From Clostridia bacterium (lineage in GTDB: Bacteria > Bacillota > Clostridia > Oscillospirales > Acutalibacteraceae): a stretch of DNA of 64,000 nucleotides. The notes beneath the pieces are model-generated. The model was given only the letters and a program-made list of their open reading frames with translations. It made no database searches and was not told where the DNA came from. A program made the position numbers and the translations under genes. This document shows positions 15,507 through 54,375 of this stretch, piece by piece. Numbering within the stretch: the stretch's first letter is position 1; each line of letters opens with the position of its first letter. The stretch lies in contig JAFQRA010000010.1 of the NCBI GenBank assembly GCA_017410325.1, positions 62,001 through 126,000 on the forward strand, in the 5' to 3' direction.

Positions 15507-15614
15507 TCAGCAGCCGCAGTTTTTGTCAAACGACGGATTGCAGGCGTAGAAATTCTTGCTGTCCAGCTTGTCGGTCGCAAAACGCAAGCCTTCTCCGTTA
15601 CAATCAAAGCAAAA
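15507..15614 (-). repeat. Coding-type repeat RPT, copy 1 (3' end of a Cys-rich ORF)
   Basis: First of three 108-bp copies in one orientation. Read on the minus strand it gives 35 codons and TGA: F-C-FDCNGEGL, a middle part, then NFYACNPSFDKNCGC at the end. In this copy the frame stays open upstream to about 15660, but has no ATG and no ribosome site. Against copies 2 and 3 only codon 2 (Cys for His) changes the residue; all other differences are silent. It lies just outside the last gene of the capsule operon. Confidence 0.85.
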
Positions 15615-15672
15615 CTGCAAAACCAATGGAATTATCCCACATTGATAATAATTGCATTTTTAAAGGCTGATA

Positions 15673-16857
15673 TCAGTATTTTCTCCATACCATTCTATCC
15701 ACAACATTGGTATAAGACTGAATTATTTTAACTACCTTCGTGCTGACGTTTTCTTCAATATAATCAGGAACAGGAATGCCGTAATCACCGTTGCTGTTCA
15801 TATCAACAGCAGTTGCAACGGCCTGCAGCAGACTGTTTTCGTCAATACCCGCAAGAACAAAACAAGCTTTGTCAAGTGCCTCCGGACGTTCGGTAGATGT
15901 TCTTATGCAAACCGCAGGGAAAGGATGGCCTACGCTGGTGAAAAAGCTTGATTCCTCGGGCAGGGTTCCGCTGTCAGAAACAACCGCAAAAGCATTCATC
16001 TGCAGTTTATTATAATCATGGAATCCGAGCGGTTCATTCTTAATAACCCTTTTATCAAGCACAAATCCGCTCTTTTCAAGGCGGTTTTTGCTTCTCGGAT
16101 GGCAGGAATACAGAATCGGCATATCGTATTTTTCTGCCATTTTATTTATTGCCGTAAACAGGCTTAAAAAATTCTTTTGAGTGTCAATATTTTCTTCTCT
16201 GTGGGCAGAAAGCAGAATATATTTTTTTGCTTCCAGACCAAGTCTTTCAAGCACATCACTTGCTTGAATTTCTGCAAGGTTCTGCTTGAGCACCTCTGCC
16301 ATAGGAGAGCCCGTTACATAGGTTCGTTCTTTCGGCAGACCGCACTCGTGAAGGTATCTGCGTGCATGCTCACTGTATGCAAGGTTGACATCAGAAATGA
16401 TATCAACAATACGGCGGTTAGTTTCCTCAGGAAGGCATTCATCCTTGCATCTGTTTCCTGCTTCCATATGAAATATCGGAATGTGAAGCCTTTTGGCAGC
16501 TATTGCAGAAAGGCATGAGTTTGTATCGCCCAACACAAGAAGTGCATCGGGCTTTATCTGATTCATCAGTTTGTAAGAACAGCTGATAATATTACCTACG
16601 GTTGAACCAAGGTCATCGCCGACCGCATCCATATAAACCTCAGGCTCTGCAATTTTCAAATCTTTGAAAAACACACCATTGAGGTTATAATCATAATTCT
16701 GACCTGTATGCGCAAGAATTGTATCAAAATACCTGCGGCACTTATTGATAACCGCAGAAAGACGGATAATTTCAGGTCTTGTCCCCACAATAATAAGAAG
16801 TTTTATTTTTCCGTTATTCTGAAATTTCACATCACTGTAATCAAGTTTAATACTCAT
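15673..16857 (-). CDS. capG: CapG/FnlC-type UDP-N-acetyl-L-fucosamine synthase (2-epimerase)
   Basis: A 394-residue UDP-sugar 2-epimerase. IIVGTRPEIIRLSAVI, HMEAGNRC, SAHREENID and VSDSGTLPEESSF are family motifs; the TLPEESSF form and the N-terminal extension are those of the CapG/FnlC branch rather than of UDP-GlcNAc 2-epimerase. It performs the last step to UDP-L-FucNAc after CapE and CapF, which lie directly upstream in order. GAGAGGT precedes the ATG at good spacing. It is the last gene of the capsule operon, followed by repeat copy 1 and a terminator. Confidence 0.87.
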   Translation of the reverse strand: MSIKLDYSDVKFQNNGKIKLLIIVGTRPEIIRLSAVINKCRRYFDTILAHTGQNYDYNLNGVFFKDLKIAEPEVYMDAVGDDLGSTVGNIISCSYKLMNQIKPDALLVLGDTNSCLSAIAAKRLHIPIFHMEAGNRCKDECLPEETNRRIVDIISDVNLAYSEHARRYLHECGLPKERTYVTGSPMAEVLKQNLAEIQASDVLERLGLEAKKYILLSAHREENIDTQKNFLSLFTAINKMAEKYDMPILYSCHPRSKNRLEKSGFVLDKRVIKNEPLGFHDYNKLQMNAFAVVSDSGTLPEESSFFTSVGHPFPAVCIRTSTERPEALDKACFVLAGIDENSLLQAVATAVDMNSNGDYGIPVPDYIEENVSTKVVKIIQSYTNVVDRMVWRKY

Positions 16858-16895
16858 AGATAATACCTCTCTCAGAGTTTAACTGTTCAAATTAA

Positions 16896-18095
16896 TTATT
16901 CAACAACCTCAAAAAATGTATCCGGATGCTTGGGGTCAAACTGTTCATTCGCCCACATTACGGTAACGAGGTTTTCTGTTTGAGATAAATTGATGATATT
17001 GTGCGTGTAACCCGGTAGCATATGTACTGCTTCAATCCTGTCTCCGCTGACCTCAAAGTTTATAACTTCATCTGTGCCTATTCTGCGCTGCTGAATAAGG
17101 CCCTTACCGCTTACAACAATAAAGAATTCCCACTTGCTGTGGTGCCAGTGCTGACCCTTTGTTATTCCGGGTTTTGAAATATTTACCGAAAACTGTCCGC
17201 ATTTTTCGGTTTTAAGCAGTTCGGTAAAGCTGCCCCTTGTATCCTCATTCATCTTGAGCGGAAAACAAACTTTCTCTTTGGGCAGATATGACAGATATGT
17301 GCTGTACAGTTTCTTGGCAAAAGAGTTTTCAGGAATTTCCGGCATAACCAGAGTATTGGCCTGAGCGCTGAAAGTGTTAAGCAAATCTACAATTTCGCCA
17401 AGTGTCACCATATGAGTAAGCGGCACAAAGCAATACTTTCCGTCAAGGTCCGGAACAGCTTGAGTACCCGAATACTCACAGCGCTTTTCTTTGCCTTCAA
17501 GAGCATCAAGCATTCCGTTTACAAGGTCATCAATATAAAGCAGCTCAAGCCTAACTGAAGGATCGCTTACCGTAATCGGCAAATCGTTGGCAATATTATT
17601 GCAGAAGGTAGCTACCGCACTGTTATAATTCGGTCTGCACCATTTGCCGAAAAGATTCGGAAAACGGTAAACAAGCACCTTTGCACCCGTTTCCTGTGCA
17701 AACTTAAACAAAAGCTCTTCGCTCGCTTTTTTTGAGCGTCCGTAATCACTGTCATAGCGTCCGATACACGACGCCTGAATTGACGAAGAAAGCATTACAG
17801 GGCATGTATTGTTGTGCTTTTTCAGAGTTTCAAGCAGCAATGACAAAAAGCCATAATTCCCCTGCATAAACTCCTCCGGATTCTGCGGACGGTTTACTCC
17901 CGCAAGGTTAAAAACAAAATCTGCTTCTTCACAGAATTTATCAACATCCTCAACAGGCGTATCTGTATCACACTCAAATATATTGTCAATTTTCAAATCC
18001 GGGCGAGTTCTGTCTTTGCCGTCACAGATATTTTTCAGGCTTTCGCAAAGATTTTTCCCTACAAAGCCTTTTGCACCCGTTACCAGTATATTCAT
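16896..18095 (-). CDS. capF: CapF/FnlB-type bifunctional epimerase-reductase for UDP-L-FucNAc
   Basis: A 399-residue two-domain protein. The N-terminal short-chain reductase domain has the nucleotide motif VTGAKGFVGKNL; the C-terminal cupin domain (about residues 285-399) has GQHWHHSKWEFFIVVSG with metal-binding histidines. This fusion is typical of Staphylococcus aureus CapF, which epimerises at C3 and reduces the 4-keto sugar on the way to UDP-L-FucNAc. Its ATG overlaps the stop of capE by four bases, with GGGGGCGG as ribosome site. The gene order capE-capF-capG matches the pathway. Confidence 0.92.
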   Translation of the reverse strand: MNILVTGAKGFVGKNLCESLKNICDGKDRTRPDLKIDNIFECDTDTPVEDVDKFCEEADFVFNLAGVNRPQNPEEFMQGNYGFLSLLLETLKKHNNTCPVMLSSSIQASCIGRYDSDYGRSKKASEELLFKFAQETGAKVLVYRFPNLFGKWCRPNYNSAVATFCNNIANDLPITVSDPSVRLELLYIDDLVNGMLDALEGKEKRCEYSGTQAVPDLDGKYCFVPLTHMVTLGEIVDLLNTFSAQANTLVMPEIPENSFAKKLYSTYLSYLPKEKVCFPLKMNEDTRGSFTELLKTEKCGQFSVNISKPGITKGQHWHHSKWEFFIVVSGKGLIQQRRIGTDEVINFEVSGDRIEAVHMLPGYTHNIINLSQTENLVTVMWANEQFDPKHPDTFFEVVE

Positions 18096-19135
18096 TGCTT
18101 TTCCGCCCCCTTAAGTTCAGCTTTTATATACTCAAGAGAAGAGAGTACCTCCTTGGTTTCCTCAACCGTAAGTAGCCGTGTATTGTTGGAATCAAATTCT
18201 GTCAGAGGGTTGCGTGCGGCATCGCCGATATTGAAATATTTATCATAATTCAGTCCCCTTTTATCGCAGGGCACACGGTAGAAATCGCCCATATCAACCG
18301 CAACGGAGCACTCCTCATTGGTAAGAAGTGTTTCATACATCTTTTCACCGTGACGTATACCGATAATTTTGATATTGTTCTTATCGGCACCGAACAGCTC
18401 GCAAACAGCCTCAGCCTGTGTCTGAATTGTACAGGCAGGTGCTTTCTGAACAAGAATATCACCCGACTGACCGTGCTCGAACGCAAACAGAACAAGGTCA
18501 ACAGCCTCATCAAGAGACATAATAAAGCGTGTCATATTCGGGTCAGTAACCGTAACGGGATTTCCGCTTTTTATCTGATCAATCCAGAGCGGAATAACAG
18601 AGCCGCGTGAACACATAACATTACCGTAACGGGTACAGCATATTTTGGTCTTGTTTGTTGTGCGTGCTTTGGCAACAATTACCTTTTCCATCATTGCCTT
18701 TGATGTACCCATAGCGTTTACAGGATAAGCCGCTTTATCCGTAGAAAGGCAGACAACGTTCTCAACACCTGCTTCAATTGCCGCAACAAGAACATTTTCC
18801 GTGCCGAGAACATTGGTCTTTACGGCCTCTATCGGGAAAAACTCACACGACGGCACCTGCTTGAGCGCCGCTGCATGGAATATGTAATTAACTCCGTGCA
18901 TCGCATTTCTTACAGAAGCAATATCCCTGACATCACCGATGTAGAATTTTATTTTATCAGCAACGTCAGGCATTTTCACCTGAAACTCATGGCGCATATC
19001 ATCCTGCTTCTTTTCATCTCGTGAAAAAATGCGGATTTCTTCAATATCGGTACCAAGAAAACGGTTAAGCACAGCATTACCGAAAGACCCTGTGCCACCT
19101 GTAATGAGCAAAGTTTTATTTTTAAACAAGGACAT
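18092..19135 (-). CDS. capE: CapE/FnlA-type UDP-GlcNAc 4,6-dehydratase/5-epimerase
   Basis: A 347-residue extended short-chain dehydrogenase. TGGTGSFGNAVL is the NAD site; YPVNAMGTSKAMMEK replaces the usual YxxxK tyrosine region as in inverting dehydratases of the CapE/FlaA1 group. It starts the route from UDP-GlcNAc to UDP-L-FucNAc. The ATG at 19135 is preferred over one 39 bases upstream because it has GGAGG about 10 bases before it and sits two bases after the preceding stop. Confidence 0.93.
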   Translation of the reverse strand: MSLFKNKTLLITGGTGSFGNAVLNRFLGTDIEEIRIFSRDEKKQDDMRHEFQVKMPDVADKIKFYIGDVRDIASVRNAMHGVNYIFHAAALKQVPSCEFFPIEAVKTNVLGTENVLVAAIEAGVENVVCLSTDKAAYPVNAMGTSKAMMEKVIVAKARTTNKTKICCTRYGNVMCSRGSVIPLWIDQIKSGNPVTVTDPNMTRFIMSLDEAVDLVLFAFEHGQSGDILVQKAPACTIQTQAEAVCELFGADKNNIKIIGIRHGEKMYETLLTNEECSVAVDMGDFYRVPCDKRGLNYDKYFNIGDAARNPLTEFDSNNTRLLTVEETKEVLSSLEYIKAELKGAEKQ

Positions 19136-19137
19136 AA

Positions 19138-20232
19138 TTATGCTTCCTCCAATATATCGGCTATCCGCTTGCAAGCAAAACCGTCACCATAGGGATTGCT
19201 TGCCTGAGCCATTTTATCGTATGCTTCTTTATTATCAAGAAGCTCCTTAAAGCTATTATAAATAACCGTTTCATCTGTTCCGACCAGTTTAAGTGTGCCT
19301 GCCTTTATTCCCTCAGGTCTTTCGGTTGTATCCCTCATAACAAGAACAGGTTTTCCCAGCGAGGGTGCCTCCTCCTGAATTCCGCCACTATCTGTAAGGA
19401 TAAGATAGCTGCGGGCAAGGAAATTATGAAAATCAAGCACCTCAAGCGGCTCAATAATATGAATCCTGTCACAGTCTCCAAGCTCTTCATCCGCTGCTTT
19501 ACGGACAACAGGATTCATATGAATCGGGTAAATCGCTTTCACATCAGGGTATTCATCCATCGTTCTGCGAATTGCGCGGAACATATTGTGCATAGGTTCG
19601 CCAAGATTTTCCCTGCGATGAGCCGTTATGATAATAAGGCGGCTTCCCTCTGCCCATTCAAGCTCAGGGTGAGTATAGTTCTCCCTGACAGTTGTTTTCA
19701 GAGCATCAATCGCCGTATTACCCGTAACATAAATTGATTCGGAATTTTTGCCCTCGTTAAGCAAATTCTGCTTTGAGAGTTCAGTCGGAGAAAAATTATA
19801 CTTCGCAACAATGCCGACTGCCTGACGGTTGAATTCTTCGGGATAAGGTGAATAAATATTGTAAGTACGCAGTCCTGCTTCCACATGGCCAACAGGAATC
19901 TGCTTATAGAAGCACGCAAGCGCCGTTACAAAAGTTGTTGAGGTATCACCGTGAACAAGAACAACATCCGGTTTCACCTCGTCCAGCACTGCTCCGATTC
20001 TGTTAAGAATATTTGTTGTAATATCAAACAGCGTCTGCCCTGCTTTCATTATAGACAGGTCATAATCAGGCTCAACGCCAAAGGCATCCAGCACCTGATC
20101 GAGCATCTGACGGTGCTGACCCGTTACGCAAACAACCGTTTTTATATTTTCCCTTGACTTCAGCTCATTTACAAGCGGACACATTTTTATGGCTTCCGGC
20201 CTTGTACCGAAGACAAGCATAACCGTTTTCAT
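19138..20232 (-). CDS. mnaA: UDP-N-acetylglucosamine 2-epimerase (non-hydrolysing)
   Basis: A 364-residue enzyme of the WecB/MnaA type: VFGTRPEAIKMCPLV at the N-terminus, HVEAGLRTYN, TAHRRENLGEP, and DSGGIQEEAPSLGKPVL. It interconverts UDP-GlcNAc and UDP-ManNAc. The ATG at 20232 follows AAAGGG by eight bases; the GTG three codons upstream is too close to that site. The next upstream gene oxidises UDP-ManNAc, so the pair supplies UDP-ManNAcA. Confidence 0.95.
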   Translation of the reverse strand: MKTVMLVFGTRPEAIKMCPLVNELKSRENIKTVVCVTGQHRQMLDQVLDAFGVEPDYDLSIMKAGQTLFDITTNILNRIGAVLDEVKPDVVLVHGDTSTTFVTALACFYKQIPVGHVEAGLRTYNIYSPYPEEFNRQAVGIVAKYNFSPTELSKQNLLNEGKNSESIYVTGNTAIDALKTTVRENYTHPELEWAEGSRLIIITAHRRENLGEPMHNMFRAIRRTMDEYPDVKAIYPIHMNPVVRKAADEELGDCDRIHIIEPLEVLDFHNFLARSYLILTDSGGIQEEAPSLGKPVLVMRDTTERPEGIKAGTLKLVGTDETVIYNSFKELLDNKEAYDKMAQASNPYGDGFACKRIADILEEA

Positions 20233-20270
20233 ATTATCCACCCTTTCCGATGGGTTATCAGATTTTGAAA

Positions 20271-21491
20271 TTATATATGATATACACCGGGTAAATCACA
20301 GATATTGTGACAGTCAAGCACGATTTTTTCGCTGAGCTTGTCCATATTTTCTTTGATCTCGTTGTGCTTTACCATAATAACCACAAGGTCTGTATCTGAA
20401 AGGAACTCATCAAGGTCGTGATACTGATTTTCAACAGCATCCTCCGTTATGAACGGATCATAAACCTTGAGCGGTGCAGCAAGATGGCGAGCCTGGCTTT
20501 CAAGAAGCTGAAGCGTCGGAGATTCACGGATATCATCAACATTTTCTTTATATGTAAGTCCGTAAAGGCCTACCCGTGCAGTATCCTTTATTCCGTTTTC
20601 CTGCATAATTTCATAAATTCTGTTCAGGACGAAATCGGGCATACCGTCATTTGTTTTCATTGATTCGTCAATTACTTTTGCAAGGCTGGGATAATCGCCG
20701 ACAAGGAACCACGGGTCAACGGAAATGCAGTGACCGCCAACGCCCGGACCGGGCTGAAGAATATTTACACGCGGATGCATATTACAGATTCTGATAATTT
20801 CATAAACATCCATATTATCATGACGGCAAATTTTAGCAAGCTCATTTGCAAACGCAATGTTGACCGCACGGAATGTGTTTTCAACAACCTTAGTCATCTC
20901 TGCCGTACGGATATCGGTAACAACAATTTCGCCCTCGCAAAAAGAAGCATAAAGAGCCTTTATTTTTTCGCCGACAGTTTTATCATCTGCGCCGATAGTA
21001 CGGTCATTATGAAGAAGCTCGTGCACCATATTTCCGGGTATAATTCTTTCCGGTGCATGAACAAGGTTGATATCCTCACCTATCACGAAGCCGTTTTCTT
21101 CAATCACCGGGCGAATAAATTTATCAATCGTTCCGGGAGAAACCGTTGACTCAATAACAACTGTAGCGCCCTTCGGACAAATCTGCATAACGCTTTTAAC
21201 CGCCGATATTATGTAACAGGCATCAACCTTTTTTGAAAACTTATCGTAAGGTGTAGGAACGGAAATGATATACGTATCTGTCACCTGATACTCCGTCGAA
21301 AACCTGATGCCGGATTTGAGTGCATCGGCAAAAAGCTCGTCCAGACCGTTTTCTTTAAATGTGGTTTTGCCCGCATTAAGTGTGGCAACAAGCTCCTCGT
21401 TATAGTCCGTCCCTATAACCTCTACGCCGTGCGACGCAAGCATAAGCGCAGTAGGAAGTCCGATATATCCAAGTCCGATTACGTTGATCAT
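20271..21491 (-). CDS. wecC: UDP-N-acetyl-D-mannosamine dehydrogenase
   Basis: A 406-residue UDP-sugar dehydrogenase. VIGLGYIGLPTALMLASHG is the NAD site and GPGVGGHCISVDPWFLVG carries the catalytic cysteine. It oxidises C6 of UDP-ManNAc to the uronic acid in two NAD-dependent steps. The branch is called from the neighbouring 2-epimerase and from motif details; a UDP-GlcNAc dehydrogenase is the alternative. AGGAG lies upstream of the ATG. Confidence 0.9.
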   Translation of the reverse strand: MINVIGLGYIGLPTALMLASHGVEVIGTDYNEELVATLNAGKTTFKENGLDELFADALKSGIRFSTEYQVTDTYIISVPTPYDKFSKKVDACYIISAVKSVMQICPKGATVVIESTVSPGTIDKFIRPVIEENGFVIGEDINLVHAPERIIPGNMVHELLHNDRTIGADDKTVGEKIKALYASFCEGEIVVTDIRTAEMTKVVENTFRAVNIAFANELAKICRHDNMDVYEIIRICNMHPRVNILQPGPGVGGHCISVDPWFLVGDYPSLAKVIDESMKTNDGMPDFVLNRIYEIMQENGIKDTARVGLYGLTYKENVDDIRESPTLQLLESQARHLAAPLKVYDPFITEDAVENQYHDLDEFLSDTDLVVIMVKHNEIKENMDKLSEKIVLDCHNICDLPGVYHI

Positions 21492-21505
21492 TTTTCATCA
21501 TTCTC

Positions 21506-22279
21506 CTATATTATCGATCGTATTCTATGCATAAAGAAAGTTATGTTTCGGCTGGGTTTTGGTTGCGGCGGTAACAATTTCATATTATCAATCTGAGGAA
21601 GACTGTCTGTACAAATCTCAATGTTGCATTTTCTTTGAATCCTGTTAACAGACTCTAAATTCCAATGACTTCTGTATATCGGCTTTCCCCAATCATAGTC
21701 AAAAACCATCTCGTGATCTTTTACAGCCGAATAGATTTCTTCTTTTAAAAAACGAGAGCGAAAACTTCCCCATCGCTCAAATTCCCAAGCATTCTCATGT
21801 TTTCTCAAAACTTTTTTAAGAAAAGAAGTTTTCCAAAGACCGGCCTGACAGTTAATCCTATATGTTGCATTTGATTCCAATTTTGAGTATCCGCTTAATT
21901 GCTCGCTTTCAATTAGGCCTTCAGGTGTATTTTTAAAACTTATACATCCAACCTCAGGATGTTGGAGCATATACTCTGAACATCTGTTAAATTCCTGTAT
22001 ATTAACAATATCTTCAATAAAAAAATCTTCCAGGAATACCAATACATAATCCGTAGATATTTTATCCAGTACATTCAAAAAGCGCTCTGACCATGTTTTT
22101 GCACTTGGGAAATTACATACCGTCAAGTTAATACCTTCAAAACTGTAATCCTTTGTTTCAGTATTAAGAACAACCGGCAAATCAAACCCCTGCCAATTTT
22201 TCTCCAAAAGAGTAAAAAAAGGAGTCCAAGTATCACTATATTTGTCACAACTGTTTACTAAAAACGTAACGTTTTTCAT
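21506..22279 (-). CDS. Probable capsular glycosyltransferase, GT-A-like
   Basis: A 257-residue protein starting MKNVTFLVNSCDKYSDTWTP, with a perfect AGGAGG site before the ATG at 22279. The stretch YVLVFLEDFFIED around residue 90 looks like the acidic metal site of a GT-A fold, and FLVNSCDKYSD is seen in capsule-locus proteins of this type. No membrane segment. The sequence is AT-rich compared with the nucleotide-sugar genes that follow, as usual for the variable part of a capsule locus. Donor and acceptor are unknown. Confidence 0.6.
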   Translation of the reverse strand: MKNVTFLVNSCDKYSDTWTPFFTLLEKNWQGFDLPVVLNTETKDYSFEGINLTVCNFPSAKTWSERFLNVLDKISTDYVLVFLEDFFIEDIVNIQEFNRCSEYMLQHPEVGCISFKNTPEGLIESEQLSGYSKLESNATYRINCQAGLWKTSFLKKVLRKHENAWEFERWGSFRSRFLKEEIYSAVKDHEMVFDYDWGKPIYRSHWNLESVNRIQRKCNIEICTDSLPQIDNMKLLPPQPKPSRNITFFMHRIRSII

Positions 22280-22351
22280 TTTTCTTACCTCCTGGAAAAA
22301 AATACAAAATCTCTTTTTATGCAACTCTTATATAATTTACAGAGCCGCACA

Positions 22352-23557: not shown

Positions 23558-23559
23558 TT

Positions 23560-25068: not shown

Positions 25069-25145
25069 CTTTTAAAAACCTCAACGCTGAATAATATAAT
25101 TACCTAACCATACAAAAGCACACCAAAGGAGTTGATGTTAAGGAT

Positions 25146-26087: not shown

Positions 26088-26121
26088 AATGCATACCTTT
26101 CTGAAAATCAAATATTCTGAT

Positions 26122-27279: not shown

Positions 27280-27313
27280 ATTTATCACTTCCCATGCAAA
27301 ACAAATTAAAAGC

Positions 27314-29158: not shown

Positions 29159-29176
29159 TTTTATTCCTCCGTTCAG

Positions 29177-30406: not shown

Positions 30407-30431
30407 ATTGCCTCCACAGCACAAAGCGAAC

Positions 30432-32077: not shown

Positions 32078-32101
32078 TTTAATTTCACATCTTTTCGAAT
32101 A

Positions 32102-38961: not shown

Positions 38962-38979
38962 CTAAAATCTTTAAAATAA

Positions 38980-39023: not shown

Positions 39024-39032
39024 GTTTTGTCT

Positions 39033-40748: not shown

Positions 40749-40779
40749 ATTATCACCTCCTATTCAGATATTATTTTTA

Positions 40780-42234: not shown

Positions 42235-42246
42235 AGTCTACCAACC

Positions 42247-43767: not shown

Positions 43768-43772
43768 TCCCA

Positions 43773-44600: not shown

Positions 44601-44606
44601 AAATCA

Positions 44607-45332: not shown

Positions 45333-45437
45333 AAGCATCACCTGACATAAAATTTGCACAAAAAAACACTTCCACATATACTTTGTAATTTTATCACAAT
45401 TTGCAGAACAAAGCAACATAAAATATTAAACTTATAA

Positions 45438-45468: not shown

Positions 45469-45491
45469 CCGTAACAAAAGCAAATAAAATG

Positions 45492-45519
45492 TCGGTGTAC
45501 GGATTTTTCCGCACACCGA
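45492..45519. terminator. Hairpin downstream of repeat copy 2
   Basis: TCGGTGTACGG pairs with CCGCACACCGA (one mismatch) around a 6-base loop; T-rich on both sides. On the minus strand it ends the oxidoreductase transcript after the repeat. Confidence 0.65.
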
Positions 45520-45547
45520 TTTGTTTTATTTCAGATATTGTCCTTTT

Positions 45548-45655
45548 TCAGCAGCCGCAGTTTTTGTCAAACGACGGGTTGCAGGCGTAGAAATTCTTGC
45601 TGTCGAGCTTATCGGTTGCAAAGCGTAAGCCTTCACCGTTACAATCAAAGTGAAA
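45548..45655 (-). repeat. Coding-type repeat RPT, copy 2
   Basis: Same 35 codons plus TGA as at 15507 and 54268. In this copy an in-frame TAG stands directly before the first repeat codon (TTT), so it cannot be read from upstream in this frame. It differs from copy 3 by four silent third-base changes only. It lies between the oxidoreductase stop and the hairpin at 45492, and marks the right edge of the capsule locus. Confidence 0.85.
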
Positions 45656-45912: not shown

Positions 45913-47979
45913 TTATATCTTTTTTACGCATTCAAAGGCACTTCGGGTGGCATCGGCAATTCTGCCTACCCTTTCGCCGTCACCGATAAGCCATGCGTTG
46001 ATTCCTGCATTTTTAAGCTCGTTGTAAAGAGCGTTGTCACTCTTTGCGCCGAGGGAAAGAACGACAAAATCGGTCGCAATTTCAGATTTACTGCCGTTTT
46101 TATCCTCCACAACAATTGCGCTTTCCTTAATTTCGGTAAGCTTGCTTGAGGTGAAGAACCTTGCACTTTTTGCTTTAAGTCGGGGCATTATGTCGTTGAC
46201 GTGCTGATGCCATACACCCGGGGCAATTTCATCCGCCATTTCCACAACGGTTACCTCGTTATCCGTTACGGTAAGCAGCTCCGCTGTTTCAAGGCCCGTC
46301 ATACCGCTGCCGATAACGGCAACCTTTTTGTTTTCAAGCACGACGTCACCGTTAAGAATTTCGGTAGTCGTGTAAACGTTTTCACGGTCGTGGCCGTTGA
46401 TGAATCCCGGTTTTGTTGCATAAGCACCCGTTGCACAGATTACGGCGTAAGGCTTGGCCTTTTCAACAAGCTCCCTGGTAATTTCCGTATTCATCATAAA
46501 CTCTACGCCAAGCTTACTGCAGGCTGTATAAAGGTCCTCAATACACCAGTAAAGCTTATCCTTATGCGGCGGTTTAACGGCAAGGTCAACCTGTCCGCCG
46601 AGTTTATCGCTTTTTTCGGCAACCGTAACGCAAAAGCCGCGCTTTGCAAGAAGCTCTGCGGCAGTAAGACCTGCAGGACCTGAGCCGACAACAAGAACCT
46701 TTCTGCCATTACCGTCGTTTTTCAGCTCGTATTTTTCACTGCCGACAAAGGGGTTTACCGCACAGTAGCCGTGGTCGCCTATGTAAGCGTTGTTCTGCAT
46801 ACTTTCTATACAGTAAAGGCAACAGATACAGCGCTTTATATCCTCGGGGTGTCCGCTTTGTGCCTTGCTTGCCCAATAGGGGTCGGCAATATGCGGCCTG
46901 CCGAGTGAAACCATATCCTGCACGCCTTCATTAAGCTGCTGTTCAGCCTGCTCGGGGCTGCGGATAAGGTTTGCGGCAATAACGGGTATGCTGACCGCAT
47001 CCTTGACAGCCTTGGCCATATATTTTCTCCAGCCGCATTCAAACGAAACGGGCTCAAGCCAGTAGTTAAATGCATCATAAGAAGCAGAGGAAACGTCAAT
47101 AGCATCAACGCCTGCTTTTTCAAGGCGCTTTGCCATTTCAACGCCCTCGTTAAGTCCGTAGCCCTTGCCTTCTTTGCCTATCATAGAATAGCACTCGTCA
47201 ACGGTAAGACGTACGATAATCGGGAAATCCCTACCGCATTTTTCACGTATGCCTTCAATAATTTCGAGAATAAATCTCATTCTGTTTTCAAGGCTTCCGC
47301 CGTATTCGTCCGTGCGCTTGTTTGTGTTGGGCGATAAAAACTGCTGAAGCAGATATCCGTGGGAAGCGTGAAGCTGAACGCCGTCACAGCCTGCCTTCTT
47401 TACTCTTTCGGCAGCAGCAATAAAATCGGCAATAAGCTTCTTGATTTCTCTCTTAGTAAGCGCCCTGTTGTTACCGTCGGAAAAATAGCTGTTTTCACAT
47501 TTTGACGGCGAAACAACTCTGGGTACGATGTGGTGCTTCATCAGAAGCTTGCCTGCAGGTACTACCTTGTAAAGCACGTCCTTGAAAAACGGCAGTGCTT
47601 TGTCGCACGCAATGCTCAGCGGCAAAGTGCCGATAAGCAGGCCCATATTCTGTCTGCCCGGGTGATGAAGCTGAACGAAAAGTTTGGAGCCGTGGGAATG
47701 GATGCGCCTTGCAAACTCCGCCATACCCTCAATCTGGTAATCGTGGCTCATACCGAGCTGTGCAAATGCAGCACCGCCCGTAACGTCGTTTACTCGTGTA
47801 ATTTCCGTTACGATCAGGCCCGTACCGCCCTTTGCCCTTTCTTCGTAATAATCCATAAGCTGTTCAGTTGTACAGCCGTCAAACTGACCGAAATCCATAA
47901 GCATAGGTGCCATACAGATTCGGTTTTTTATTTCAACGCTACCTATTTTTACAGGCGAAAACAGAGTGGTAAATTCCAT
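45913..47979 (-). CDS. Fe-S flavoenzyme, NADH:flavin oxidoreductase / dienoyl-CoA reductase type
   Basis: A 688-residue protein with three parts: an FMN-binding old-yellow-enzyme barrel (FSPVKIGSVEIKNRICMAPM, HASHGYLLQQFLSP), an Fe-S segment with clustered cysteines (CICCLYC, then GYCAVNP), and FAD/NAD domains (VLVVGSGPAGLTAAELLA and VAVIGSGMTGLETAELL). Relatives reduce enoyl-CoA or unsaturated steroids and aromatics anaerobically. The ATG at 47979 has AAAGGA upstream and follows a good promoter at 48018-48046. The Fe-S cysteine spacing is compressed compared with 2,4-dienoyl-CoA reductase. Substrate unknown. Confidence 0.87.
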   Translation of the reverse strand: MEFTTLFSPVKIGSVEIKNRICMAPMLMDFGQFDGCTTEQLMDYYEERAKGGTGLIVTEITRVNDVTGGAAFAQLGMSHDYQIEGMAEFARRIHSHGSKLFVQLHHPGRQNMGLLIGTLPLSIACDKALPFFKDVLYKVVPAGKLLMKHHIVPRVVSPSKCENSYFSDGNNRALTKREIKKLIADFIAAAERVKKAGCDGVQLHASHGYLLQQFLSPNTNKRTDEYGGSLENRMRFILEIIEGIREKCGRDFPIIVRLTVDECYSMIGKEGKGYGLNEGVEMAKRLEKAGVDAIDVSSASYDAFNYWLEPVSFECGWRKYMAKAVKDAVSIPVIAANLIRSPEQAEQQLNEGVQDMVSLGRPHIADPYWASKAQSGHPEDIKRCICCLYCIESMQNNAYIGDHGYCAVNPFVGSEKYELKNDGNGRKVLVVGSGPAGLTAAELLAKRGFCVTVAEKSDKLGGQVDLAVKPPHKDKLYWCIEDLYTACSKLGVEFMMNTEITRELVEKAKPYAVICATGAYATKPGFINGHDRENVYTTTEILNGDVVLENKKVAVIGSGMTGLETAELLTVTDNEVTVVEMADEIAPGVWHQHVNDIMPRLKAKSARFFTSSKLTEIKESAIVVEDKNGSKSEIATDFVVLSLGAKSDNALYNELKNAGINAWLIGDGERVGRIADATRSAFECVKKI

Positions 47980-48017
47980 AACAGAACATTCCTTTCGGAG
48001 CTTTGATTTATATGTTG

Positions 48018-48046
48018 ATTTTACCACTTTTGCACCACGAATTCAA
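48018..48046 (-). promoter_or_regulatory. Promoter of the flavin oxidoreductase gene
   Basis: TTGAAT, 17 bases, TAAAAT with extended TGG on the minus strand. It lies back to back with the SDR promoter. Confidence 0.6.
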
Positions 48047-48056
48047 CAGCTTTTCA

Positions 48057-48085
48057 TTGACATAAAGGTAAATTTAATCTATCAT
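48057..48085 (+). promoter_or_regulatory. Promoter of the SDR gene
   Basis: TTGACA at 48057-48062, 17 bases, TATCAT at 48080-48085; transcript start near 48092. Confidence 0.6.
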
Positions 48086-48112
48086 AAAAACGTAAAGGAT
48101 GTGAATTTCATT

Positions 48113-48898
48113 ATGATTTCAAATAAGAAAATAGTTCTCACAGGCGCCGACAGCGGAATAGGCTTCGAGGTGCTCAGACTCCTTGCCGCAGAAAAGACAA
48201 ACACTATTCTTGCAGTAGATATCAAGCAGACAAAAATGCATACTCTGTCAGATAATGTTATTCCTTTTGTGTGCGATGTTTCCTCAAAAGAAAACGTTGA
48301 CCTGATTTTTGAAAAAGCCGAAAAAGAGCTCGGTGAAATTGACATTTTCTATGCCAACGCAGGCTATCCCTATTACGAGCTTATGGACTATACCGATTGG
48401 GACAGAACAGCAAGAATGTTTGAAACAAACGTGTATTCTCCCATTTATTCTTATCAGAAATATGTAAAGCATCTGAACGGCAGAAACGGTCACTATGCCA
48501 TAACAGTTTCGGCAATCGGCAAAATGGCTATGCCCGGCTTCACTACATACTCCGCATCAAAATTCGCAATGGAAGGTTTCCAGCAGGGCATCCGCTTTGA
48601 GCTTCCGAAAAACGTGAAACTCACCTGCCTCTACCCGATTGCAACTGACACAAATTTCTTTGCGGCTGCAAACGAGGTTGAGTTTGAGCGGCCCTTCCCT
48701 GTTCAGAGCCCTGCCGTTGTTGCAAAGAAAATGGTAAAGGGAATTGAAAAGGGTAAAAAGAGCGTTAACCCGAGCTTCCTCTTTACACTCTCGGGCGTGC
48801 TTTTTGCCGTACTTCCCCCTGTTAAAAAGGTTTACCTTGCGCTTGAAAAAGGCAAGCTGAAAAGATTTGTTGCAAAAATCGGAAAACACGTAGATTAA
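48113..48898 (+). CDS. Short-chain dehydrogenase/reductase
   Basis: A 261-residue classical SDR. VLTGADSGIGFEVLRLLA is the cofactor loop, FYANAGYPYY the NAG motif, and YSASKFAMEGFQQGI holds the YxxxK catalytic pair. A C-terminal hydrophobic stretch (PSFLFTLSGVLFAVLPPVKK) suggests membrane contact. The ATG at 48113 is 13 bases from AAAGGA, a long spacing; a GTG at 48101 is too close to it. It diverges from the flavin oxidoreductase, and both may act on one lipid-like or steroid-like substrate, which is inference. Confidence 0.87.
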   Translation: MISNKKIVLTGADSGIGFEVLRLLAAEKTNTILAVDIKQTKMHTLSDNVIPFVCDVSSKENVDLIFEKAEKELGEIDIFYANAGYPYYELMDYTDWDRTARMFETNVYSPIYSYQKYVKHLNGRNGHYAITVSAIGKMAMPGFTTYSASKFAMEGFQQGIRFELPKNVKLTCLYPIATDTNFFAAANEVEFERPFPVQSPAVVAKKMVKGIEKGKKSVNPSFLFTLSGVLFAVLPPVKKVYLALEKGKLKRFVAKIGKHVD

Positions 48899-48905
48899 AA
48901 CATCA

Positions 48906-48932
48906 AGCCGTCTGTAATCAGGCGGCTCTTTT
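48906..48932 (+). terminator. Terminator after the SDR gene
   Basis: AGCCGTCTG pairs with CAGGCGGCT (one G-U) around TAAT, followed by CTTTT. Confidence 0.7.
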
Positions 48933-48981
48933 GGTATAATGAGATACAAATAAAACTTGTTTGTTTATGTCTATTATGTAA

Positions 48982-49010
48982 TTGAAAACTTTGATTAATA
49001 CTGTTATAAT
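48982..49010 (+). promoter_or_regulatory. Promoter of the CooC/dehydratase operon
   Basis: TTGAAA at 48982-48987, exactly 17 bases, TATAAT at 49005-49010. The leader is about 30 bases. Confidence 0.7.
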
Positions 49011-49046
49011 GTATTTATTAATATCCTAAGTGGGAGTGAAATAATT

Positions 49047-49814
49047 TTGAAAGAAAACGCAACAATTATAGCTCTTTCAGGTAAAGGCGGCGTAGGTAAA
49101 ACCTCGATTTCCGCCGCAATAGTAAAACTTCTTGTCCAGGCTTACCCCGACAAAAAAATACTTGCAATCGATGCTGACCCTGCAGTAGGTCTTTCAACCG
49201 CGCTCGGTATTGACGTGAAGATGACTATTGACGATATCCGCAAGGAAATTGTCGAAACCGTTGAGGACGGTCAGACAAAGGCTGCCATTGAGCTTTTGGG
49301 CGATGCAAGATATAAAATATTCGACGCTCTCGTTGAAACAGACGGTTTTGCATTTATTGCCGTCGGCAGACCCGAAAGTGCAGGCTGTTACTGCAGAATC
49401 AATTCCTATCTCAAGGAAGTTATCAGTATTCTTTCAAACGAATTTGACTATGTTGTTATTGACGGTGAGGCAGGAATTGAGCAAATTAACCGCCGTGTTA
49501 TGGAAAAAGTCACTCACCTTCTGCTCATCACGGATGCAAGCAAAAAAGGTACGCAGGTTATTTCCACAATCAAGAGTGTTGCTGACGAGCTTGTGATGTA
49601 CAAAAAAATCGGTGCAATCGTCAACCGTATTCCCGACGAAAGCGTTATTCCCCATATAGACACAAATGGTATACCTGTTTTGTCATATATTCCTACTGAT
49701 TCAAATCTTGCAATCTACGATATTGAAGGCAAAAACATAACAAAGTTACCAGACGATTCAAACGTTGTTGAAGGAGCCAGAAAAGCTCTTGTTGAAATGG
49801 AGATTATGAAGTGA
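49047..49814 (+). CDS. CooC/MinD-type ATPase
   Basis: A 255-residue P-loop ATPase of the SIMIBI class. IALSGKGGVGKTSISAAIV is the deviant Walker A, AIDADPAVGLSTALG Walker A', and VVIDGEAGIEQINRR Walker B. GRPESAGCYCRINSYLKEV carries the C-x-C pair used by CooC dimers for metal handling in CO dehydrogenase maturation. The start is TTG at 49047 with GGGAG about ten bases before. It heads an operon with dehydratase, activator and an acetyl-CoA-synthase-like protein; no CO dehydrogenase lies in the window. A metal- or electron-donor maturation role is likely. Confidence 0.85.
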   Translation: MKENATIIALSGKGGVGKTSISAAIVKLLVQAYPDKKILAIDADPAVGLSTALGIDVKMTIDDIRKEIVETVEDGQTKAAIELLGDARYKIFDALVETDGFAFIAVGRPESAGCYCRINSYLKEVISILSNEFDYVVIDGEAGIEQINRRVMEKVTHLLLITDASKKGTQVISTIKSVADELVMYKKIGAIVNRIPDESVIPHIDTNGIPVLSYIPTDSNLAIYDIEGKNITKLPDDSNVVEGARKALVEMEIMK

Positions 49815-51016
49815 GAGATTTAAAACATCTTTATGAATTTGAAAACCTGCTTCAGGAAGCAAACAACGCACTTGTTCAGCAGGCAAAAAGCGAAGGCGGC
49901 ATAGCACTCGGCTACACCTGCTACCACATTCCCGAAGTTTTGCTCAACTGCGGCAGCTGCTTTTCCGTGAGACTGCGTGCACCTCGCACAGGCTCAATGG
50001 ATATCGCAACCTACTATATGAGCAACTTCCTTTGCGGATATTCAAAGGCTATTCTTGAAAGAGCAATAGAGGGCGGATACAATTTTCTTAATGCACTTCT
50101 TGCAAGCGAAACCTGCTCTGAAATGAACAGGGCCGCCGAACATTTCGAACTGCTAAACCTGGTTGAAAACGATAAGATCTTTTTGACATTTCTTGATATG
50201 CCGTTCAAAATTGCCGACCATACGGTAAAACATTATGTTACACAGACGAGGAACAAAATTCTCAACAAAATGGCTGAAGTGTACGGTGTTGACACTTCAG
50301 ATGAAGCACTTTTAAAGGCTGTCGAAGAACATAACGAAGTATGTCGGATTATGAAAGAAATCGGTGAATACCGCAAAGAGGATAATCCGAGAATAACAGG
50401 TTACGAATACCACATACTAAGCCTTATTACATACTGTTGCCCCAAGGCCCTTATTCTGCCAAAACTGCGTGAAACTGCAGAAGAGCTTAAAACACGTGAA
50501 CCTGATGTGAAAAAGAACTTCAGGGCTAAAATCGTTGTTGTCGGTTCCGAAATGGATGATCCGGAATTCACCGCACTTATTGAAGACAGCGGTGCACTTG
50601 TTGTGGCTGACAGATACTGCTTCGGCACTATGCCCGGCAGAGAAGAAATAATAATAAAACCGGACGAGGATGTGCTCACACAGATTTGTATGCACTATCT
50701 CAAAACCAGCCAATGTCCGAGATATATGAGCCACGAAAAGGTTCAGGAACGCAGGGACTATGTAAAGCACCTTGTTGACGAATATCACGCAGACGGTGTT
50801 ATGTACGAACAGCTTAAATTCTGCGAATACTGGGGCTACGAAAGAGCACTTGCATCTTATGTTATGAGTAACGATTACGGTGTACCCACAGCCGCAGTTG
50901 ACAGGCAGTACACCGCTTCTGCATCGGGTCAGCTGCGAACCCGTGTTCAGGCTTTTGTTGAAAGCCTTGAAATCAAGAAAATCCAGAAGGAAAGGCAGGC
51001 AAAGAACAATGGCTGA
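49811..51016 (+). CDS. 2-hydroxyacyl-CoA dehydratase family protein, shorter subunit
   Basis: A 401-residue protein of the HgdB/FldC/BcrC family. GYTCYHIPEVLLNCGSC and MSNFLCGYSKAILE near the N-terminus and a CPKALILPKL stretch in the middle give the scattered Fe-S cysteines; DGVMYEQLKFCEYWGYE is the typical C-terminal block. Family members bind an Fe-S cluster and, after one-electron activation, dehydrate 2-hydroxyacyl-CoA or reduce other substrates. The GTG start overlaps the CooC stop by four bases. Confidence 0.85.
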   Translation: MRDLKHLYEFENLLQEANNALVQQAKSEGGIALGYTCYHIPEVLLNCGSCFSVRLRAPRTGSMDIATYYMSNFLCGYSKAILERAIEGGYNFLNALLASETCSEMNRAAEHFELLNLVENDKIFLTFLDMPFKIADHTVKHYVTQTRNKILNKMAEVYGVDTSDEALLKAVEEHNEVCRIMKEIGEYRKEDNPRITGYEYHILSLITYCCPKALILPKLRETAEELKTREPDVKKNFRAKIVVVGSEMDDPEFTALIEDSGALVVADRYCFGTMPGREEIIIKPDEDVLTQICMHYLKTSQCPRYMSHEKVQERRDYVKHLVDEYHADGVMYEQLKFCEYWGYERALASYVMSNDYGVPTAAVDRQYTASASGQLRTRVQAFVESLEIKKIQKERQAKNNG

Positions 51017-52541
51017 CCTTGGAAAGCTTTATTCGCAAGACCGTAAAGCTGTTCTTAAGCACAGGGAATGGCGCGGTTTCAAGGACACGATGTACGACTA
51101 CTACCGCTGGCTTGTAACCTGGAAAGATATGATAGTTATGGTACTCAAAGCACCCATTTCAACTGTCAGAGGCTTGTGGAAATACCGTTGGATGGCGTCT
51201 TACCTTTCAACTCCTTCGTTTATTGACAGACACACCGCAGGCTTAAGAGGTACGCACCTTCGCATTGTTCACCTGCACTTTAATATGATAGTCAAGCACG
51301 CAACGGGACTTATTCACACATCCTTTGTTGCAGACGAAAAAATCAATCCGAACAACAAGCTTTCAAAGAAAATAGTTCTTACGGATGAAATTATTCCAAA
51401 TGAAATTTTCTCGGGCTTTCCGAATCTGACGGTTGTGCCACTTCAGACTATTCCGATTTTCCTCACATCAATGGTTGACCAGCAGATTACTCCGCCTTAC
51501 CTTGAAGTTACGGAAAGCTTCGGTGTGCCTGCCGATGTATGTCCCCTTCCCAGTGCGGAGGCAGGTGTTGCGATTGATGACGATTACCCGAAAATGGGCT
51601 GCTGTATGGTTGCAACAAATATGCCGTGCGACGGCTCAGTTATGAACTCAACCTTCCTTGACAGAAGATTGAATCTTCCCGTTCACCTTTTCAACATTCC
51701 GCTTCGCTATAACGACGAGGATGTGCAGGAATATGCAGTTGAAGAAGTCAAAGAGCTTATTAAGTTTATCGAGAATCATACGGGCGAAAAGTTTGACTGG
51801 GATGTATTCTTCAAAGCCCTTGAAACCTCCAACGAACAGCTTGAATACGAGCTTGAAAAATGGGATATAAACAAAACAAAATATCCACAGATGACGGGTG
51901 CTGCTTTCTGGCTTTACAGAATTTATTATTTCAACCTTTCAGGCGGTGTTGACAAGCGTTTCCTCAAGGTTGATAAAAAAGTCAACAAGCTTATGCTTAA
52001 AGGTTACGAGAAAAAAGAAGCCGTTTCAAAAGAAATGCGCCACCGTGCAGTTGTATGGAGCTGTCCTGCAAACTACTACACAAGCTTTGCGAACTGGCTC
52101 GAAAACTGCTGGGGTATGAACGTTGTTATGGATATGGAAACGATGATTTCCTATATCAAGTATGACACAAGAGACAAAGAACAGGCTCTTAAAGATGTTG
52201 CAAAAACATATCAGCGTTCAATTATGCGTAAGCACACAAAGGGCGGCTACAGAAACGTTGTTGACGAGCTGTGGAGAATAGTTGAAGAATACGATGCCGA
52301 TACGGTTATTATGTATGACCAGATTTCATGCAAAGGCATGGACGGTCTTGCAGGCATCTTTGATGACCAGGCAAGGGAAAGAAACGTCAACTTCATTTGG
52401 GTAAAGCAGGACCTTATGAACCCCAGAACAATTTCAAGACGAGATATGCGTGAGCAGGTCAACAAATATATGCAAACCGTTCTTCAGGAGGAGCCGCTCG
52501 ACCCCTCACTTGTTGATTTTGAAGACGACTTAGCTTGGTAA
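51009..52541 (+). CDS. 2-hydroxyacyl-CoA dehydratase family protein, longer subunit
   Basis: A 510-residue relative of the previous protein, with an N-terminal extension of about 100 residues. PADVCPLPSAEAGVA, KMGCCMVATNMPCDGS and VVWSCPANYYTSFANWLEN contain the candidate cluster cysteines, and ADTVIMYDQISCKGMDG the C-terminal block. The ATG at 51009 overlaps the end of the upstream gene. Unusually, no CoA-transferase or acyl-CoA dehydrogenase is nearby, so this may be a double-cubane or other non-classical member. Substrate unknown. Confidence 0.82.
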   Translation: MADLGKLYSQDRKAVLKHREWRGFKDTMYDYYRWLVTWKDMIVMVLKAPISTVRGLWKYRWMASYLSTPSFIDRHTAGLRGTHLRIVHLHFNMIVKHATGLIHTSFVADEKINPNNKLSKKIVLTDEIIPNEIFSGFPNLTVVPLQTIPIFLTSMVDQQITPPYLEVTESFGVPADVCPLPSAEAGVAIDDDYPKMGCCMVATNMPCDGSVMNSTFLDRRLNLPVHLFNIPLRYNDEDVQEYAVEEVKELIKFIENHTGEKFDWDVFFKALETSNEQLEYELEKWDINKTKYPQMTGAAFWLYRIYYFNLSGGVDKRFLKVDKKVNKLMLKGYEKKEAVSKEMRHRAVVWSCPANYYTSFANWLENCWGMNVVMDMETMISYIKYDTRDKEQALKDVAKTYQRSIMRKHTKGGYRNVVDELWRIVEEYDADTVIMYDQISCKGMDGLAGIFDDQARERNVNFIWVKQDLMNPRTISRRDMREQVNKYMQTVLQEEPLDPSLVDFEDDLAW

Positions 52542-52555
52542 AGGAGAAAGTTATT

Positions 52556-53350
52556 ATGAAATATTTCGGCGGATGTGACGTCGGCTCAACATACACAAAA
52601 TGCATTATTCTTGATGAAAACGGCAAAATCGTTGCCAATGTCACAAACAGAAGCAAAATCAACCCCGTTGCAAGTGCTGAAATAGCACTTTCTGACGCTG
52701 TTGCACAGGTAGAAGGACTTAATTCGGCAGAAGAGCTTACCTACCTTATCGGTACGGGCTACGGCAGAAACAAGGTTCCCTTTGCCGATGAAAACATTTC
52801 GGAAATCAGCTGTCACGCAATGGGTGTTCACGTTACCAATCCCGATGTAAAGGCTATTATCGATATCGGCGGTCAGGACGTCAAAGGTATTTCAATTGAC
52901 ACCGACGGCACAGTCAAAAACTTTGCAATGAACGATAAGTGTGCTGCAGGTACAGGCAGATTTTATGAGGCTATGGCAAACGCATTTGAAATGACTCTGC
53001 CCGAGTTTTCCAAGCTTTCGCTTGAGGCTAAAAACACTATTCCGATTACTGCACAGTGCACCGTTTTTGCTGAAAGCGAGGTTATCTCACTTGTCGGTGA
53101 AGGCAAGCCGATGGATGAAATTGCGGCAGGTATTCAGCTTGCAGTTGCCAAAAGATGCTTTGTTATGGCTAAAAAAGCAGGTGCAACAGACAGCATAACC
53201 CTCACAGGCGGCTGCGCAAAGAATGACGGACTCAAGAAGGCCATTGAAAAGGTGCTTAAAATTAAGGTGGTTGAGCTTTCAACAGACCCGCAGCTTATGG
53301 GTGCACTCGGTGCGGCTGAATATGCACGCCAGAAGGGACTGGATAAATAA
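52556..53350 (+). CDS. Activator ATPase of 2-hydroxyacyl-CoA dehydratase
   Basis: A 264-residue ASKHA ATPase. GGCDVGSTYTKCIIL is phosphate-1, IGTGYGRNKVPFAD follows, IIDIGGQDVKG is phosphate-2, and NDKCAAGTGRF with AQCTVFAESEV gives the two cysteines that hold one [4Fe-4S] cluster between two monomers. It passes an electron to the dehydratase at the cost of ATP. AAAGGAG stands nine bases before the ATG at 52556. Confidence 0.93.
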   Translation: MKYFGGCDVGSTYTKCIILDENGKIVANVTNRSKINPVASAEIALSDAVAQVEGLNSAEELTYLIGTGYGRNKVPFADENISEISCHAMGVHVTNPDVKAIIDIGGQDVKGISIDTDGTVKNFAMNDKCAAGTGRFYEAMANAFEMTLPEFSKLSLEAKNTIPITAQCTVFAESEVISLVGEGKPMDEIAAGIQLAVAKRCFVMAKKAGATDSITLTGGCAKNDGLKKAIEKVLKIKVVELSTDPQLMGALGAAEYARQKGLDK

Positions 53351-53351
53351 T

Positions 53352-53507
53352 ATGGAAATTATTTTAATAATCCTCGGTGTTATACTGGCGCTTTTCGTTA
53401 TTACCTTTACAATCTATTTTTTCAATCTGGATATGAAGCTCATCCGCAAGGTTTACGACCTGCTCGGCAAGCACTACGACACAATGAAAAGGGATAAAAA
53501 GCTCTGA
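53352..53507 (+). CDS. Small single-span membrane protein (51 residues)
   Basis: A 51-residue protein: MEIILIILGVILALFVITF begins a long membrane helix, and the remaining 25 residues are basic and cytoplasmic (MKLIRKVYDLLGKHYDTMK). It starts just after the activator stop and overlaps the next gene by one base, so it is part of the operon. The ribosome site is weak. It may hold a redox partner at the membrane; this is a guess. Confidence 0.65.
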   Translation: MEIILIILGVILALFVITFTIYFFNLDMKLIRKVYDLLGKHYDTMKRDKKL

Positions 53508-54190
53508 TGAAATTCTTTGATTCGTTGATTCTTGAAACGGAAAAGTTAATATCGCCTTTTCCGAAAAAAGAGTTTGAGGTGTGTAAACCGTGGCACGATG
53601 CACAGCAGGCACAGGTAATAATGCGGCGCGATACCGCATTTGAGCTTGAGGGTGTCGGTTTCAATATTGTCACTTCAGGTGAAATTAAAGACGGTATTGT
53701 TCTTGTCGGTGATAACCTGAATGAAATCAAGGACAACAGAAAGTTTGCACGTATCACAGTTGTCCAGATTGAGGATAGCGATGACGAGCAAAAAGCATAT
53801 AACCTCATAAAAAAGATTGACTATGTGAAATACCACACCTTTCCCGATGGGTATATGATGCGCAGCACTTCACGCTCGCACAAAGAGGCTGTGCGTGTTT
53901 CAAAGCAGGCATTGCAAGACGGTGCAGATTTCAGAAAAATCGGCTCGTTGCTGATTGAAAAGCACAAGGAAATACCTGCCGTCATAGGCGTTAAGGTTAT
54001 TTTCATAACCGCAAAAGAAGCAGATTACAACGAAACCGAAAGAATTGCTGAAAAAAATTATGCAATAACCGAAACGCTGAATCACGTTATGAACAGCGTG
54101 AACTTTGATTGCGACACCTGCAATCTCAAAGCAATCTGCGACGAGGTTGAAGGAATGAAAGAGCTTCACTTCAACAAAGCTGACAAATAA
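53507..54190 (+). CDS. Acetyl-CoA synthase/CdhC-like protein
   Basis: A 227-residue soluble protein. VCKPWHDAQQAQVIMRRDTAFELEG resembles the start of the acetyl-CoA synthase (CdhC/AcsB) fold, where the consensus is PW-x-R-x-D-T-A-F-E-L-G-G. The C-terminus has FDCDTCNLKAICDEVEGMKELH with a CxxC-x4-C cysteine set. It is far shorter than acetyl-CoA synthase and lacks the A-cluster region as I know it. It ends the CooC/dehydratase operon before a strong terminator. A role in cluster or CoA handling is inference. Confidence 0.55.
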   Translation: MKFFDSLILETEKLISPFPKKEFEVCKPWHDAQQAQVIMRRDTAFELEGVGFNIVTSGEIKDGIVLVGDNLNEIKDNRKFARITVVQIEDSDDEQKAYNLIKKIDYVKYHTFPDGYMMRSTSRSHKEAVRVSKQALQDGADFRKIGSLLIEKHKEIPAVIGVKVIFITAKEADYNETERIAEKNYAITETLNHVMNSVNFDCDTCNLKAICDEVEGMKELHFNKADK

Positions 54191-54195
54191 TATGA

Positions 54196-54237
54196 AAACC
54201 GCTCCACCGTATTTTTAAAAGTGGAGCGGTTGTTTTT
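54196..54237. terminator. Terminator of the dehydratase operon
   Basis: ACCGCTCCAC pairs perfectly with GTGGAGCGGT, with flanking A and T runs, so it can work in both directions. On the minus strand it follows repeat copy 3. Confidence 0.85.
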
Positions 54238-54267
54238 GTTTTATTTCAAATACTTACTATTGCGTTT

Positions 54268-54375
54268 TCAGCAGCCGCAGTTTTTGTCAAACGACGGGTT
54301 GCAGGCATAGAAATTCTTGCTGTCGAGCTTATCAGTTGCAAAGCGCAACCCTTCACCGTTACAATCAAAGTGAAA
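54268..54375 (-). repeat. Coding-type repeat RPT, copy 3
   Basis: Same 35 codons plus TGA as at 15507 and 45548. An in-frame TGA lies directly before the first repeat codon. The bases just upstream on the minus strand (CCCTTGATTTTGC) match those of copy 1 (CCATTGGTTTTGC), so homology reaches some 20 bases past the coding part. It follows the HipA-like gene on the same strand. Confidence 0.85.

Follow-up and report, generated by a model that had tools for sequence, protein, structure and literature searches.

We propose that a sporulation gene, cotJC, is interrupted by mobile elements in the genome of a Clostridia bacterium, and that three copies of a 108-bp repeat in this genome are detached ends of that gene. 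The stretch of DNA analysed (the window) is 64,000 nt long and corresponds to positions 62001-126000 of contig C7; the whole genome (G000) comprises 2.67 Mb in 39 contigs. All three copies lie on the minus strand of the window, at 15507-15614 (copy 1), 45548-45655 (copy 2) and 54268-54375 (copy 3). They are very probably right-hand attachment sites (attR-type) of an element, here called SR2-type, that lies within cotJC, with excision by a recombinase rejoining the gene in sporulating cells.

The repeats are last exons of a split cotJC gene

A search of the genome with copy 1 (E<=0.001) found exactly three places, in agreement with an earlier, sequence-only reading of the window; identity to the query is 93% (E 6e-39) at one of the other two and 91% (E 3e-36) at the second. 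That reading took each copy for the 35-codon end of a peptide, which is true of the last 29 codons: each copy is an 18-bp recombination half-site followed by the last 29 codons and the stop codon of cotJC. The half-site is the same 18 bp, TTTCACTTTGATTGTAAC, in copies 2 and 3, and homology with full-length cotJC begins at codon 7, with GGTGAAGG in copies 2 and 3 and GGAGAAGG in copy 1. Codons 1-6 of each copy (F, C or H, F, D, C, N) are half-site and non-coding, including codon 2, at which the earlier reading saw the only replacement among otherwise silent changes. Over the last 29 codons the peptide is identical in all three exons, with no replacement in any pair and with seven (copies 1 and 2), nine (copies 1 and 3) and four (copies 2 and 3) silent differences.

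Full-length cotJC genes, which the earlier reading had suggested seeking in the genome and in relatives, were found in relatives and end in this same C-terminal peptide, bearing out its idea that the repeats are detached 3' ends of a gene family that is still alive. By contrast, its suggestions of a non-AUG start or recoding are without support, the frame being the end of cotJC behind a half-site. The 35-codon open frame and the silent-only changes might also be expected of an independent small peptide gene or an RNA element; we regard this as extremely improbable, and reject a free peptide, because the frame is the end of full-length cotJC, opens with six codons of recombination half-site and, in copies 2 and 3, is directly preceded by a stop codon (TAG and TGA, as originally noted).

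The intact CotJC of a relative (G005) matches the Mn catalase family PF05067 at 186.4 bits (cut-off 27), and the middle part of the split gene does so at 150.8 bits; a weaker Mn-catalase paralogue lies on contig C32. The split gene is broken at about codon 31 and about codon 175, giving an N-part (C17:52860), a middle part (C17:86428-86889) and a last exon that occurs three times, always on C7. CotJA (PF11007) and CotJB (PF12652) genes precede the N-part, and with all three families above cut-off this operon is, judged by homology, the cotJABC spore-coat operon. In Bacillus, cotJABC is sporulation-specific and under mother-cell control. The genome also contains spo0A.

Copy 2 marks the original position of the gene. 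On C17, the region preceding the N-part matches the region upstream of intact cotJC in a relative (G008) at 91.6% over 5.0 kb, and on C7 the region downstream of copy 2 matches that downstream of the same gene at 98.9% over 6.4 kb; G008 keeps cotJC intact at the same locus. The terminator-like hairpin after copy 2 also follows cotJC in G001, G003, G004, G008 and G010, while G005 has another sequence there. Since the downstream match to G008 ends at the core of the putative att site, and the terminator is common to five relatives, we conclude that the native last exon is that of copy 2. An alternative was considered in which copy 1 is an ancient native exon, the segment between copies 1 and 2 not lying beside cotJC in G003; this was dropped because copy 2 has the terminator of the five relatives.

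Attachment sites and recombinase genes at the breaks

The middle part continues into GGTGAAGC-GTTACAATCAAAGTGTAA and copies 2 and 3 begin with TTTCACTTTGATTGTAAC-GGTGAAGG, such that attL and attR have the core GGTGAAG in common. The element arms of attL and attR are inverted repeats with 18 of 22 positions paired; 8 to 16 positions pair in the nine other genomes compared. Joined in register, the N-part, the middle part and copy 1, 2 or 3 each give 202 codons, 199 of them identical to G005 CotJC. A scan of the window for the half-site, allowing up to one mismatch, found three instances, each oriented as in attR, and no attL-type half-site. In G005, the half-site and a core-like GGTAAAGG occupy the position of copy 1 (L057:9034-9059), but no exon follows.

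A large serine recombinase (LSR) gene adjoins each break: SR1 lies 13 bp past the match of the N-part and SR2 87 bp past that of the middle part, both on the strand opposite to cotJC. In both proteins, Resolvase, Recombinase and zinc-ribbon domains score above cut-off. A phage origin of SR2 was considered and rejected: 973 phage records match it, all at <60% identity, the first listed at 31%. A scan of viral contigs with short peptide patterns, which detects close relatives only, found none.

We propose that an SR2-type element inserted into cotJC at about codon 175, at the core GGTGAAG, which would have joined its half-site to the last exon, and that an SR1-type element cuts the gene at about codon 31 as well. 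In sporulating cells, SR1 and SR2 would recombine attL with attR, the elements would leave as circles, and the N-part, the middle part and one last exon would come together in a single 202-codon gene. The mother cell leaves no descendants, so loss of the elements costs nothing. Copies 1 and 3 would be extra attR-exons, most likely left from earlier insertions at the same site, and may stem from repeated insertion there, similar to tandem accretion. Among the routes to a peptide named in the earlier reading, recombination with another module is the best fit, given how the att sites are built and that recombinase genes adjoin the breaks.

Table 1. Features of the window, with the basis or content of each
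Feature	Position	Strand	Basis or content
Copy 2, native last exon of cotJC (29 codons + TGA)	45548..45637	-	Flank match to G008; terminator common to relatives
Copy 2, element half-site of attR, TTTCACTTTGATTGTAAC	45638..45655	-	Inverted-repeat pairing with attL arm on C17, 18/22 positions
Copy 3, extra last exon of cotJC	54268..54357	-	Same peptide as copy 2; in-frame join of 202 amino acids
Copy 3, half-site, 18 bp as in copy 2	54358..54375	-	Sequence comparison
Copy 1, extra last exon of cotJC	15507..15596	-	Same peptide; core GGAGAAG, not GGTGAAG; solitary copy of G008 at same place
Copy 1, half-site, TTTTGCTTTGATTGTAAC, partly diverged	15597..15614	-	Sequence comparison
Terminator-like hairpin after copy 2	45481..45520	-	Read from sequence; hairpin type recurs after cotJC in five relatives
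Terminator-like hairpin after copy 1, different sequence	15434..15481	-	Read from sequence
Terminator-like hairpin after copy 3, different sequence	54193..54231	-	Read from sequence
Segment between copies 1 and 2	15673..45419		Polysaccharide-type genes at both ends: epimerase 15673-16857, CpsB/CapC 44607-45419
Segment between copies 2 and 3	45913..54190		FMN/FAD oxidoreductase, short-chain dehydrogenase, CbiA/ParA-like ATPase, two HGD-D proteins, BcrAD-type ATPase, CdhC-like protein
Putative part of the codon-175 element	54376..64000		Runs on along C7 past the window; attL and SR2 on C17

Split cotJC genes recur at four sites in relatives

Ten of the 11 genomes of the genus have a match to cotJC, intact in six and split in four (G000, G004, G006, G010); the exception, in which no match was found, is G007, at 77% completeness. 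Solitary last exons are present in three of the 11: G000 (three), G001 (two) and G008 (one). In the family, 195 of 250 genomes have a match and 55 have none. Classified by best match, with one row per genome, 149 of the 195 comprise 87 intact genes, 59 that end at one of four sites and three others; 46 of the matching genomes are unclassified, and some rows fall at contig ends (G199, G089). The 59 split genes end at site 1 (codons 20-31) in 22 genomes, site 2 (codons 174-181) in 13, both of these in two, site 3 (codons 55-63) in 20 and site 4 (codons 137-143) in two. Across the class, 192 of 293 genomes have a match, and families other than this one show these end points too. Among 36 re-examined genomes, mostly picked as split, cotJC has four exons in G030, G096 and G266 and three in G000, G148, G150 and G259.

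With the search limited to windows around these sites, joining the parts gave a CotJC of 198-205 amino acids for 24 of 25 combinations; the failing join (G129) overruns the length limit. A join in G030, whose hits contain an indel, gave 198 amino acids in a separate in-register run and is not one of the 25. A free core search chose wrong cores in several genomes, and its in-register version failed at site 1 for G096 and G266. Some joins share only 2-4 bases, and such short runs are no evidence when taken alone.

Among the junctions fetched, an LSR gene lies within 150 bp of the break in 14 of 16 sets at site 1, 12 of 14 at site 2 (including a solitary last exon in G143 with a decayed recombinase gene) and five of eight at site 3, and within 1.7 kb in 37 of 38. 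In a midpoint-rooted tree of 37 LSRs, some of them incomplete, the 16 from site 1 form one clade (support 0.65) and the 12 from site 2 another (support 1.0); those from site 3 fall into two clades, of five and three. The site near codon 60 is cut by two distant clades (L119, L124 and L127; L107, L108, L117, L121 and L133), which looks like convergent targeting. At one locus (G030, L121:2821-5969) the second cotJC exon, a micro-exon of about 35 codons, lies between two LSR genes, one of each site type.

These recurrences bear on whether the split reflects faulty assembly or binning of a metagenome-derived genome. The genome is in 39 contigs, with the N-part and middle part on a different contig from the last exons, as might be expected of such an artefact; we nonetheless hold this to be very improbable, because split cotJC with an adjacent LSR gene is found in the single-contig genomes G259, G084, G193, G172 and G017, the copy-1 site is at the same place in G008, and the att half-sites agree between contigs.

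The pieces are under purifying selection

The earlier reading saw selection on protein in the silent differences, and comparison of split genes substantiates this. The ratio of replacement to silent substitution rates (dN/dS) between two genomes with four exons each, G096 and G266, is 0.017 (dS 0.51), with 0, 4 and 0 replacements in the second, third and fourth exons and 0 in the first. Other pairs in which both genes are split give 0.013 (G084 and G193), 0.038 (G143 and G227, codons 1-150) and 0.015 (G000 and G004, codons 1-174), as compared with 0.040 and 0.078 for two pairs of intact genes, and no stop codon was found in the split pairs. We infer that the elements predate the divergence of each pair; in the case of G096 and G266 the ground is that their recombinases are sisters at each of the three sites. 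On these ratios, split cotJC genes are under strong purifying selection, and the bacterium therefore probably removes the elements and rejoins cotJC when making spores. We consider it improbable that the elements destroyed cotJC and left its pieces as relics. In favour of this, no single piece contains both the start and the stop of CotJC, and the genome has the weaker paralogue on C32, but the low dN/dS of the split pairs, whose splits probably predate each divergence, and the lack of stops argue against a dead gene.

Role of the extra last exons

Several observations weigh against the model of excision and rejoining, or against a role for the extra exons in it. No excision product was seen, nor any joining of the parts. 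C17, with the upstream flank of cotJC, and C7, with the downstream flank, are not linked in the assembly, and the gap between them is unbridged. A site-2 break in G198 lacks an LSR gene. Copy 1 has only GAAG in common with attL, and looks partly degenerate. Neither copy 1 nor copy 3 has a recombinase remnant beside it; a decayed recombinase there was rejected because the sole SR2 match in the window (E 3.1) is not near either. G001 and G008 hold solitary last exons alongside an intact cotJC, so solitary exons are not needed in those genomes; the copy on C15 of G001 has replacement changes and has lost an arm, and G143 keeps its solitary exon next to a decayed SR2 gene. Lastly, when L060:6297-6413 of G008 is compared with window 45521-45637, the G008 exon differs from that of copy 2 at 8 of 90 positions, while the flank past the terminator is about 99% identical. 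Divergence of an exon inside a near-identical flank suggests that exon copies may recombine with each other.

We are somewhat inclined to think that copy 2 alone is ever used, with copies 1 and 3 being inert scars of past insertions whose silent-only divergence was gained while each terminated an intact cotJC in one lineage or another. The solitary exons of G001 and G008, the drifted C15 copy, the G143 scar and the diverged core and half-site of copy 1 all favour this; indeed, ordinary decayed duplicates, which the earlier reading gave as the alternative to a functional family, may account for some solitary copies, namely those on C15 and in G143. Copy 3, by contrast, has a perfect core and half-site and no replacement, and copy 1 differs from its G008 counterpart by two silent changes only, although so few changes prove little.

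Copy 3, with its intact core and half-site, could serve as an alternative exon. A bolder possibility, which we consider rather doubtful, is that the last exons are interchangeable recombination sites: any attR would complete cotJC, and the exon chosen would set which cargo segment, the polysaccharide-type genes or the metabolic cluster, leaves with the element. This would amount to an array of cargo segments, each bounded by an exon and moved by a serine recombinase, within a gene that is cut and rejoined as many as three times in relatives. The silent changes label the three last exons, making exon choice directly testable.

Segments between and beyond the copies

Copy 1 is at the far end of the polysaccharide-type segment, in the position at which G008 has a solitary copy. 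The segment between copies 2 and 3 possibly encodes an anaerobic dehydratase or reductase pathway, to judge from its gene families; copy 3 lies beyond this cluster, part of which (88%) is about 11 kb from cotJC in G001. We infer that a single element spans C17 and C7. On C17, which runs on from the attL of SR2, matches to models of SspB, SspC, SspA/DndA, BrxP/SspD and DndB (108000-126885; L054) form a phosphorothioation-type defence cluster that is probably cargo of the codon-175 element. The codon-31 element occupies 33.5 kb between the N-part and the middle part, and its ends (L052:8400-18001, L053:1-6400) have PcfJ, DUF3102, DNA methylase and M23 peptidase matches. The codon-175 site of G198 contains an insertion of 2.8 kb (L098:2482-5321) that has no detectable recombinase gene and is perhaps non-autonomous.

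Comparison with known systems

A bacterial gene in up to four pieces under strong selection would imply multi-step rejoining of DNA during sporulation in gut bacteria. Split cotJC offers a system for asking why mobile elements settle in sporulation genes, and makes available site-matched recombinase families with readable att sites. It is also a warning that gene surveys will miss sporulation genes that are split.

Skin-type elements have been described in several sporulation genes: skin in sigK, SPbeta in spsM, vfbin in spoVFB, gin in gerE and yin in yabG, with recombination of attL and attR reported to excise the element and rejoin the gene in sporulating cells for sigK, spsM, gerE and yabG (PMC5595907, PMC10747680). 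The cotJC elements resemble these in that a sporulation gene, with cotJA and cotJB upstream, is interrupted by an element with a serine recombinase gene (in skin-type elements mostly an LSR), a short core is found at both ends, and removal restores the frame, here to 202 amino acids. They differ from the elements described there in their target, in having four sites with up to three insertions per gene, and in the triplicated last exon; excision of the cotJC elements is, moreover, predicted. Several recombinase-bearing elements also cut one gene in the heterocyst interruption elements of cyanobacteria, with four in nifD of one Rivularia strain, in other bacteria and another developmental process; duplicated last exons are not among the features described in the available text (PMC4874684). 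As with cis-mobilizable elements (CIMEs) and tandem accretion of integrative elements, repeated insertion at one target would leave cargo between att sites (PMC5704250). The segments here lie between attR-type sites, and with no attL-type half-site found in the window they do not fit a CIME, a segment without a recombinase that has attL on one side and attR on the other. In Clostridioides difficile R20291, prophage phi027 lies beside a CotJC-like catalase gene, likewise a mobile element at such a gene, which is described as adjacent and not as split (PMC11222575). The data of a large survey of recombinases (PMC10083194) may include split cotJC sites. We found no description of split cotJC in the openly accessible literature, which largely excludes subscription papers and bioRxiv preprints.

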